From: Bradyrhizobium sp. AZCC 1719
GTDB taxonomy: Bacteria; Pseudomonadota; Alphaproteobacteria; Rhizobiales; Xanthobacteraceae
Assembly: GCF_036924525.1 (NCBI RefSeq)
Contig: NZ_JAZHRU010000001.1
Location: forward strand, 2,509,001-2,573,000
Direction: 5' to 3'
DNA: 64,000 bases
Shown: positions 45,261 through 57,309 of the stretch, piece after piece
How positions within the stretch are numbered: position 1 is the stretch's first letter
Layout of the letters: every line of letters starts with the position of its first letter
Made by a program: the position numbers and the translations under genes
The notes under the pieces: model-generated
Database searches by the model: none
Told to the model about the DNA's origin: nothing
Seen by the model: only the letters and a program-made list of their open reading frames with translations

Positions 45261-45443
45261 CACCCTCCCCTGGAGGGGTCCGAGACGAGCGAAGCTCGCT
45301 CGTGGGTCGGCTCACAGCGAGCGAAGCGAGATGTGAGGCGGGGTGGGGTGATCTCTCAACACGGGCAGCGCCCGATACGAAAGACTGTCACCCCACCTCG
45401 GTTCGCATTTCATGCGAACCGATCCTCCCCCTCCAGGGGAGGA
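45261..45443. repeat. Palindromic repeat, family C, intact copy
   Basis: Left arm: CACCCTCCCCTGGAGGGG ... GCGGGGTGGGGTGAT. Right arm: TGTCACCCCACCTCGG ... TCCTCCCCCTCCAGGGGAGG. The arms are imperfect reverse complements around a 37-base centre, and each carries smaller hairpins (GCTCGC..., TTCGCATTTCATGCGAA). The same arms appear split around the DUF559 gene 1.4 kb away. It follows zapA directly. Confidence 0.85.
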
Positions 45444-45458
45444 TAAGGGGCGGTCCTA

Positions 45459-46815
45459 ACCGGCTACATCGGTGACAGAGTAGACCGACGACATCGATGA
45501 CAGGTCAACTGGTCAGCAAGGGAGGACCTTGCTGATGGGGTGGAAGGAGACCTGTGCGGTGGAAGAACGGATGCGTTTTGTATTTGCGGCGGAGAAGGGA
45601 GAAGATTCGTTTGCGGCCATCTGCCGACGGTTCGGGGTGAGCCGGCAGAACGGCTACAAATGGCTTGCCCGGTACCGGGAGGCAGGTTTGGAAGGTCTGC
45701 AGGAGCACTCGCGAGCTCCGCTGCATCATCCGCAAGCGATTGCGGAGGACATTGCCGAACGCTGCCTTGCGGTGCGGCGGGCGCATCCGACCTGGGGTCC
45801 GTTGAAGGTACGGGCCTATCTGGAGCGCCGCGCACCTGCGACCGAGTGGCCGGCGGCGAGCACGATCGGTGCGCTGTTCGACCGCGAAGGGCTGACGGTC
45901 AAGCGCAAGCTGCGCCGGCGCAGCCCGCCATCGAGCGCCCCCTTTGCCCATTGCGAGGCCGCCAACGACGTCTGGTGCATCGACTTCAAGGGCTGGTTTT
46001 TGACCGGGGACGGCAAGCGGTGCGAACCGCTGACGATCACCGATGCCCACAGCCGCTATCTGCTGCGCTGCCAGGCCCTGCCGCGCACGGATACCGAGCA
46101 TGTCTGGCCGGTGCTCGATGCGGCGTTCCGCGAGTTCGGCCTGCCGCGCTACATGCGCTCGGACAATGGCTCGCCCTTTGCCTCGCGCGGCGCCGGTGGT
46201 CTATCAAGGCTGTCTGTGAAGCTGATCAAGGCGGGCGTGACGCCGGAACGCATCGCGCCTGGCAAGCCGCAGCAGAACGGCCGCCATGAGCGCATGCATC
46301 TCACCCTGTTGCAGGAGGTCGCCGACCCGCCGGCAGACAGCATGCGGGAACAGCTCAAGCGCTTGCGCAAGTTCCAGCATTTTTACAACGAAGAGCGCCC
46401 GCACCAGGCGCTCGACAATGCGACGCCGGCCGACCGCTACCAGATCTCCGCGCGCCGCTTCGACGGCATCCTGCGCGAGCCGAACTACGACGATGACCAG
46501 GAAGTGCGTCGGGTCCGTCACAACGGGGAGATCAAGCTGGACGGCAACATGATCTACATCAGCGAAGCCTTGGTCGGCGAACCGGTTGCTCTTGCCGAAA
46601 CCGAGGATGGCTGGAGCGTCTGCTATGGACCGGTGGTCCTTGGCACCATCGCCTATCGCGGCGACCGGCTACGCAAACCCAAACGCAAAGGCTGTGGACT
46701 TGTGGACAACGCTGCGCGTTGCCCACAGGGTCCACAGCCAACAACAACAGACCTGAACGAAACGAGAATTGTGTCATCGATGTCGCCGGTTTGAACTGTC
46801 ACCGATGTTGTCGGT
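45459..46815 (+). mobile_element. IS481-type insertion sequence
   Basis: About 1.35 kb with a single transposase gene and imperfect terminal inverted repeats of 35-40 bases. The left end reads ACATCGGTGACAG then ACCGACGACATCGATGACA. The right end, reverse-complemented, reads ACATCGGTGACAG then ACCGGCGACATCGATGACA. Outer limits could be 7 bases shorter on each side. I see no clear target duplication. It sits between an intact family C palindrome and the split copy. Confidence 0.82.
45529..46794 (+). CDS. IS481-family transposase
   Basis: The 421-residue transposase has an N-terminal helix-turn-helix (DSFAAICRRFGVSRQNGYKW), a second HTH region (TWGPLKVRAYLERR) and an rve-type DDE core: first Asp in NDVWCIDFKGWF, second in MRSDNGSPFAS, Glu in QQNGRHERMHLTL. 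The frame is intact and its end overlaps the right inverted repeat, so the element may be active. Start could be the GTG/TTG near 45529 or ATG 45535. Confidence 0.92.
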   Translation: MLMGWKETCAVEERMRFVFAAEKGEDSFAAICRRFGVSRQNGYKWLARYREAGLEGLQEHSRAPLHHPQAIAEDIAERCLAVRRAHPTWGPLKVRAYLERRAPATEWPAASTIGALFDREGLTVKRKLRRRSPPSSAPFAHCEAANDVWCIDFKGWFLTGDGKRCEPLTITDAHSRYLLRCQALPRTDTEHVWPVLDAAFREFGLPRYMRSDNGSPFASRGAGGLSRLSVKLIKAGVTPERIAPGKPQQNGRHERMHLTLLQEVADPPADSMREQLKRLRKFQHFYNEERPHQALDNATPADRYQISARRFDGILREPNYDDDQEVRRVRHNGEIKLDGNMIYISEALVGEPVALAETEDGWSVCYGPVVLGTIAYRGDRLRKPKRKGCGLVDNAARCPQGPQPTTTDLNETRIVSSMSPV

Positions 46816-46882: not shown

Positions 46883-46935
46883 CTACCCTCCCCGGGAGGG
46901 GGAGGGTCGCCGCGCAGCGGCGGGGCGGGGTGACA
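46883..46935. repeat. Family C palindrome, left half, split by DUF559 gene
   Basis: TACCCTCCCCGGGAGGGGGA ... CGGGGCGGGGTGACAG. It is equivalent to the left arm of the intact copy at 45261. Its inner end is 2-3 bases from the DUF559 stop codon. Confidence 0.8.
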
Positions 46936-46937
46936 GA

Positions 46938-47333
46938 TTATCCTCGTCGGCGGTGCTTCAGTGGAAATGTCTCCGCATCACGCGAGCCATACACCTCCAA
47001 ATAAATCCTCTCCATCACCGCATTCAAATCGCCAGCAACGTCCGAATTCCAGAAGCGGATAACCCGATATCCTTCCTGGTCCAGCCAGACTTGCCGTTCG
47101 CTATCGCGCTTGGCGATCGCATCCTCGTTGTGATGCTCGCCATCGAGCTCGATGATCAGACGTTTTGCCGGACAGAGGAAGTCCACGACATAAGGTCCGA
47201 TCGGCGTCTGACGCCGGAAATGCGAGCCCTCCATCGGCAGCTCTTTCAAAGCACGCCAGAGAGTGCGCTCATGCGGCGTGGTATTCGCCCGCAGCTTCTT
47301 CGCTGCGGCGCGTCGGATTGCCGTTGAAACCAT
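46938..47333 (-). CDS. DUF559 domain endonuclease (Vsr-like)
   Basis: The 131-residue protein matches DUF559, a family with the Vsr/restriction-endonuclease-like fold. Seen: KKLRANTTPHERTLWRALKE, HFRRQTPIGPYVVDFLCPAK, RLIIELDGEHH, the last giving the metal-binding Asp and Glu, and GYRVIRFWNSDV. It could cleave DNA, though substrates are unknown. The gene fills the space between two inverted arms of a family C palindrome: the stop is 2-3 bases from one arm, the start about 20 bases from the other. Chosen start ATG 47333. Confidence 0.9.
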   Translation of the reverse strand: MVSTAIRRAAAKKLRANTTPHERTLWRALKELPMEGSHFRRQTPIGPYVVDFLCPAKRLIIELDGEHHNEDAIAKRDSERQVWLDQEGYRVIRFWNSDVAGDLNAVMERIYLEVYGSRDAETFPLKHRRRG

Positions 47334-47353
47334 ATCGATCTCGCTCGTGGATA

Positions 47354-47433
47354 GATCACCCCACCCCGCTCGCATCGGACGATGCTGCGCATCGCCCGAG
47401 TGCGAACGACCCTCCCCCTCCAGGGGAGGGTGA
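47354..47433. repeat. Family C palindrome, right half
   Basis: GATCACCCCACCCCGCTCGC, then GACGATGCTGCGCATCG, then ACCCTCCCCCTCCAGGGGAG. It corresponds to the right arm of the copy at 45261-45443 and is inverted relative to the half at 46883-46935. Confidence 0.8.
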
Positions 47434-57011: not shown

Positions 57012-57309
57012 TGAGCTCCCGCCGCGTCAGGCCAAGTGAGGGAAGCACACTCGTCAGGCTCCCTCCCCCCTTGCGGGGGAGGGTTGGGGAGAGGGGTAAG
57101 CCGCGGGCTCCGATCAAAGTCGCGCAGCGACAATCTATCAACGAACGCCGCAAGATGATGCGTGAGGATACGAGTGCTTCGCCTCAGACAACTGAGCAAG
57201 CGGCACCCCTCTCCCTAACCCTCCCCCGCAAGGGGGGAGGGAACCCATTCTCCGGTGCGTCCCCAACTATTGTCGGTACCGCCATCGCCTTCGAATCCGG
57301 GACGCCCCA
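57012..57309. other. ruvC-ruvA gap
   Basis: Nearly 300 bases, taken up mainly by the long palindrome at 57060-57243. No gene. In most relatives ruvC and ruvA are close or overlapping, so the palindrome is the likely reason for the gap. Confidence 0.6.
57060..57243. repeat. Long palindrome between ruvC and ruvA (family C-like)
   Basis: Left arm: CCTCCCCCCTTGCGGGGGAG then GGTTGGGGAGAGGGG. Right arm: ACCCCTCTCCCTAACCC then TCCCCCGCAAGGGGGGAGG. The arms are near-perfect inverted repeats about 110 bases apart. They share the CCTCCCCC...GGGGGAGG ends with family C, but the inner GGGAGAGGGG differs. It would form a strong stem within the ruv message. Confidence 0.82.

Follow-up and report, generated by a model that had tools for sequence, protein, structure and literature searches.

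DUF559 nuclease genes lie between inverted boxC/PIT-type arms in many bacteria and are strong candidates for the spread of these repeats

Among described systems, the RAYT/REP elements (REPIN) come closest to the arrangement reported here. They have been characterized by inverted flanking of the gene, co-evolution of gene and repeat, and abundance of the cognate repeat (Nunvar 2010, PMC2817692), and their solo inverted pairs are viewed as putative non-autonomous copies (PMC2817692, PMC3116915). The RAYT enzyme is an HUH tyrosine transposase, and the repeats carry a constant GTAG tag. A second relevant group is the triplex-motif repeats, which were equated with boxC and PIT, have been known since the 1990s and occur in more than 260 genomes; they form intergenic inverted pairs in many copies as well as hairpin remnants after partial deletion, were linked to genome instability in Escherichia coli, and triplex formation in vitro was demonstrated for an E. 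coli sequence (Holder 2015, PMC4666352). In the part of that paper available, mobility activities near the triplex repeats of E. coli were never found and no enzyme is assigned to the repeats, and its main text holds no word starting with DUF, nuclease or endonuclease. The CGTC-tagged REPs, palindromes reported without a dedicated transposase in genomes including Bradyrhizobium (Di Nocera 2013, PMC3733652), represent a different sequence class, as the arms described below lack the CGTC tag by eye. With regard to the enzyme, the DUF559 nuclease studied here has a Vsr-like fold of the PD-(D/E)XK type, and its nearest solved relatives are a DUF559 protein, I-Bth0305I and Vsr. A Caulobacter DUF559 protein is described as Vsr-like and damage-causing, leading to SOS in cells without a cytosine methyltransferase (PMC12907096), and in Legionella, segments with a transposase and DUF559 are listed as recombination hotspots (PMC12308824). 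Our literature search, in which most subscription papers fell outside the searchable text, returned no work tying DUF559 or ycjD to palindromic, triplex or boxC repeats or to RAYT.

The locus studied here lies in a 64,000-nt stretch of the 7.2 Mb genome of Bradyrhizobium sp. AZCC 1719 (G000:C1:2509001-2573000, hereafter the window), which holds both a DUF559 element and a gene-less solo palindrome. The nuclease ORF is located on the minus strand (46938..47375; 145 aa, domain residues 22-127) and was identified as PF04480 in a Pfam profile search (E 8.8e-36), DUF559 and MTES_1575 being the only Pfam matches at the element; translation likely starts at Met15 (47331-47333). The outermost part of each arm is a C/G hairpin (ACCCTCCCC loop GGGGAGGGT); further inward come a second, variable hairpin and, adjoining the gene, a G-rich strand (GGGGTGGGGTGA). 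In the left arm (46885-46933) these parts correspond to the family C outer hairpin ACCCTCCCC loop GGGGGAGGGT at 46885..46907, the inner hairpin at 46908..46921 and the G-rich third strand GGGGCGGGGTGA at 46922..46933 on the plus strand. In the inverted right arm (47356-47431) they correspond to 47409..47431, 47368..47408 and a minus-strand third strand at 47356..47367 (TCACCCCACCCC on the plus strand), which overlaps the first codons of the listed ORF. The outer hairpins were recognized by direct reading, repeat search and folding, the inner hairpins by direct reading and folding, and the third strands by direct reading. The repeat search paired 46885-46909 with 47407-47431 over 25 nt at 96% complementarity, in agreement with the claim of the initial annotation that the two arms of one palindrome directly flank the gene; the stop codon does hug an arm as had been stated, but the left arm's third strand is four bases away rather than two to three. 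Folded as single-stranded DNA, both arms were far below shuffled controls (z -4.4 and -5.5). The solo family C palindrome at 45262..45444, correctly placed 1.4 kb away in that annotation, has a centre of 36 nt (45352-45387) instead of the 37 given, and the whole solo element as single-stranded DNA formed one long branched hairpin (z -13.3); a near-identical solo copy was found at a further locus, L032. The window locus is intergenic, between genes that we take, from reading, to be zapA and the 6S RNA/ygfA region.

The layout of these arms recurs well beyond the window. The outer side was C-rich at its start in 240 of 256 arms, and the gene-side end of arms of at least 34 nt was G-rich in 208 and C-rich in 6 out of 219. 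Under the purine-triplex rule, the G-rich strand was a mirror of the purine stem, with one mismatch allowed, in 71 of the 103 upstream arms that were parsed (of 128 in all), and the mean agreement with this rule was 0.86 for an arm's own strand, 0.78 for other arms and 0.70 for shuffled ones. The same mirror design was present at differing sequence in SAR202 (CCTTCCCCC..GGGGGAAGGTTAGGATGGGGG). Judged by their sequence, the arms flanking DUF559 genes are repeats of the boxC/PIT intrastrand-triplex class, with which they share arm design, inverted pairing, intergenic position, many copies and hairpin remnants after partial deletion (PMC4666352). They differ from RAYT/REP repeats in having a hairpin plus third strand without a constant tag, the ends of solo copies being variable by eye (GGGTAAG, GGGTGAA, rarely GGGTAG). 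In E. coli K-12 the DUF559 gene ycjD adjoins boxC copies, its arms being confined to one side. At the 3' end of ycjD, strain HYM1 carries an intact arm with the third strand facing the gene, and this arm is decayed in K-12. boxC is said to have been originally described near envM/fabI, which we take to be the neighbour of ycjD.

Four DUF559 matches were present in the genome of the window, three of them between inverted arms that each belong to another palindrome family. The fourth, a weak match (L004, G000:C1:4145134-4145442), is armless; it lies in a 440-aa frame adjoining what reads as a TrmJ-like C-terminus and is possibly a domesticated copy. Within the GTDB family, DUF559 was present in 109 of 119 genomes. 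For 40 genomes, one DUF559 gene each was set against the remaining ORFs of its 20 kb region. The flanks covered 320 nt from the domain for DUF559 and, for controls, 250 nt together with 40 nt of the adjoining ORF end. An inverted-repeat score of at least 16 was reached by 35/40 DUF559 genes and 7/492 other ORFs, one of which (L089) itself has boxC-type arms, and a score of at least 20 by 31/40 and 4/492, respectively (Fisher p 2e-42 for the DUF559-versus-ORF comparison); as the 40 regions were picked from the best 150 DUF559 places listed, weak matches are under-sampled in these figures. In a wider phylum set from 79 genomes, 128 of 154 loci passed the threshold (128/155 with the armless L004, and leaving aside L039, L049, L054, L056, L057, L106 and L277 on short contigs), that is, 76/83 inside the family, including three loci of G400 from the window's genus, and 52/71 outside it; some of the 26 loci below threshold had one arm only. 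A scan of named genomes took the best 80 of the matches listed, among which the closest relatives of the window gene were from Bradyrhizobium; 75 were tested, the flanks of L154, L176, L185, L189 and L204 being too short, and 74 of these were usable because L182 consists of N only. Here 47/74 loci passed, including Nitrospirae, Chloroflexi, Gastranaerophilales and Deltaproteobacteria, against 0/350 windows of the same size, and the 27 that failed included loci of Actinomycetes, Rokubacteria, Anaerolineales and Elusimicrobia. The initial annotation had asked how often DUF559 genes elsewhere lie between such arms and whether the arms are equally dense around unrelated genes; the genes usually do lie between arms in all three samples, and other ORFs and control windows show no comparable density.

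Eight of 34 records of a plasmid collection were opened, and four passed (Pseudanabaena, Picosynechococcus and two Deinococcus), while repeats in those of Synechocystis, Azospirillum and Photobacterium were weaker or one-sided. On viral contigs, arms were found at 19 of 29 usable close DUF559 relatives (out of 33, some on near-duplicate contigs) versus none of 42 usable distant relatives (out of 47), which indicates that the link to the arms is specific to the DUF559 family. The association of nuclease and palindrome is real and widespread and spans at least six phylum-level groups. As separate observations, the two Deinococcus plasmid elements (L340 and L341, from two species) occupy adjacent gaps of the same hpa gene cluster and look like separate insertions, and the Neisseria gonorrhoeae DUF559 gene (L337) lies between two boxC-type repeats in direct, not inverted, orientation, possibly another mode of spread.

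Nuclease and arm types were also found to be paired. Between genomes, protein similarity and arm similarity were correlated (Spearman 0.32; 128 loci, 62 genomes); permuting the arms among paralogues within a genome gave 0.18 (sd 0.03), and none of 1000 permutations reached 0.32. In 70 out of 85 comparisons (92 minus 7 removed by a similarity cut), the arm type of the nearest foreign nuclease matched, with 24 expected by chance. DUF559 types carry their own cognate arm types and co-evolve with them by this measure, a signal that co-inheritance alone could explain. At the level of genomes, the general arm pattern CCTCTCCCN{2,12}GGGAGAGG occurred at least five times in 55/80 genomes with a strong DUF559 match (E <= 1e-10, a cut chosen by the analyst), in 3/28 with weak matches only and in 10/191 with none, corresponding to 55/80 versus 13/219 (Mantel-Haenszel OR 26.7, z 5.8, 10 families). 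One family (f28) showed little association (1/11 versus 2/63), and DUF559-less genomes of the window's family had up to 72 copies of the pattern. The window arm itself, searched as a 24-mer, was present at least seven times in 12/16 genomes with the window's nuclease clade (clade C, cut at E 1.6e-34, set after the gap was seen) versus 9/103 others; the corresponding counts for at least two copies, 16/16 versus 24/103, were set aside because two copies are the element's own arms. By this measure the window's arm type tracks its nuclease clade. In the window's own genome, the family C probe matched 61 pieces, with 40 of the 75 candidates scored, and 54 pieces were matched by the L003 arm, some common to several families and 19 in plus-then-minus pairs within 200 nt. 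The three comparative features of RAYT/REP, inverted flanking, co-evolution and cognate abundance, are all found here with an unrelated enzyme, a PD-(D/E)XK nuclease; to this extent the RAYT/REP-like unit proposed in the initial annotation was borne out, and its active mobility is what we infer.

The history of individual sites was followed at the zapA/6S site, where 30 loci from 60 genus genomes searched were assigned by eye to nuclease-filled (5), solo family C (4) and empty (8) states, to solos of other boxC-type families (5, one partly masked), single-hairpin remnants (5) and one other repeat, two being unreadable. The same turnover was seen at two further solo sites, orthologous positions carrying different palindromes or single-hairpin remnants. 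When filled and empty sites were compared, as the initial annotation had proposed, neither a target-site duplication nor a clean pre-insertion site was found at the zapA/6S site or the two further sites, so that insertion is argued from scatter, copy number and presence or absence. The window copy is old and common to several species. Most solo centres still end in the bases found at the inner ends of the gene-bearing form (TCTCTCC / GAGAGACCG against TCTATCC / GATAGACTG), the match extending by eye over only ~9-10 nt per side. Unrelated REP-type palindromes are held by relatives at the same sites too, as might be expected if a RAYT or other transposase spread the arms and DUF559 were passenger cargo between two REP-type copies; given that one gene family recurs between such arms across phylum-level groups, with cognate pairing, we consider this explanation highly improbable.

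The DUF559 profile is similar to that of I-Bth0305I, which we take to be an EDxHD-type homing endonuclease. This similarity, extending to the fold, together with a gene placed in the palindrome centre with both arms kept and an orthologous site at which some species have a solo palindrome and others the gene-bearing form, would suit a homing parasite, a nuclease that cuts the centre or arm of palindromes spread by other means and copies itself in, with the arms as homology. Lone spread of palindromes, however, predicts more repeat-rich genomes without the gene than were observed, since 55 of the 68 phylum genomes with at least five arm copies have a strong DUF559 match, and the centres match over less than a split centre would retain. 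Homing endonucleases reside in an intron, intein or conserved gene, whereas the window gene is intergenic and inside palindromes, and no intron, intein or methyltransferase neighbour was seen. That no gene for mobility was found close to the E. coli repeats, according to the available text of Holder 2015 (PMC4666352), also counts against homing, which we regard as unlikely; the present data differ from that work in tying a gene family to the repeats.

The window nuclease is under purifying selection, with dN/dS values of 0.09-0.18 against four distinct intact orthologues and 0.48 against a broken-frame copy. Such constraint, the Vsr fold and the SOS caused by the Caulobacter protein in cells without a cytosine methyltransferase (PMC12907096) would be compatible with an enzyme that the host retains to process mismatches or hairpins in the manner of Vsr, the palindromes being terminators or relics. 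A host function of this kind is nevertheless quite improbable, as it gives no obvious reason why the gene should lie between cognate palindromes, at sites unrelated to one another and with several such loci of differing arms in a genome, and no methyltransferase gene was found beside the window DUF559 gene among the ORFs read there.

We consider it probable that the DUF559 gene together with the inverted arms on either side constitutes one selfish element of the RAYT/REP type with an unrelated enzyme, and that the solo palindromes are its non-autonomous copies. The data show the structure of the unit, the pairing of cognate types, their co-occurrence across genomes, purifying selection and the fold; recognition, cutting and copying of the arms by the DUF559 system are steps that we infer. 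Its recurrence in many bacteria, each nuclease type with an arm type of its own, makes DUF559 a strong candidate for the spreader of boxC repeats. The most likely target of the nuclease would be its cognate arm, probably in hairpin form as extruded from supercoiled or single-stranded DNA; after a nick or cut there, host repair would place a copy of the element at a new intergenic site or on a related palindrome. Solo palindromes would represent versions with an internal deletion, in which the two arms and a few inner bases are retained and which depend on the same nuclease for their spread. More tentatively, and with some doubt, the findings may define a new class of mobile element, in which a nuclease of the Vsr/homing fold acts alone, with no transposase: it would cut arms folded as a hairpin or triplex, and host repair would do the copying, so that both the element and large numbers of gene-less palindromes spread, each clade reading its own arm; the boxC/PIT/triplex repeats of Proteobacteria, Cyanobacteria, Deinococcota, Chloroflexota and others might have originated in this way. 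If so, a domain of unknown function would gain a role and a repeat class an enzyme, the present data pointing to one gene family, and bacteria would possess a second, unrelated RAYT/REP-like system with a nuclease replacing the transposase. The family offers a tractable E. coli member (ycjD) and a solved structure (3hrl).

Several minor features of the elements were recorded. Broken nuclease copies still adjoin arms at L299 and L325, with a broken frame in G459 and one stop in G024. The left arm of the window solo contains a nested hairpin within its outer hairpin (45279-45306), and this sequence, TCCGAGACGAGCGAAGCTCGCTCGTGGG, was present on either strand in or beside the loop of several other outer hairpins as well (L005, L022, L025, L028, L034 and L346). 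At 57061-57240 the window contains a solo copy from a second palindrome family, CTCCCTCCCC..GGGGGAGGG..TTGGGGAGAGGGG, and the same type flanks the DUF559 gene of L001. Between the solo family C palindrome and the window DUF559 gene there is an IS481-type integrase gene (45529-46794, by Pfam), and the corresponding IS481-type element (45458-46800) abuts the solo palindrome; since the same IS end abuts a family C arm at L029 in the same genome, this element may target such palindromes.
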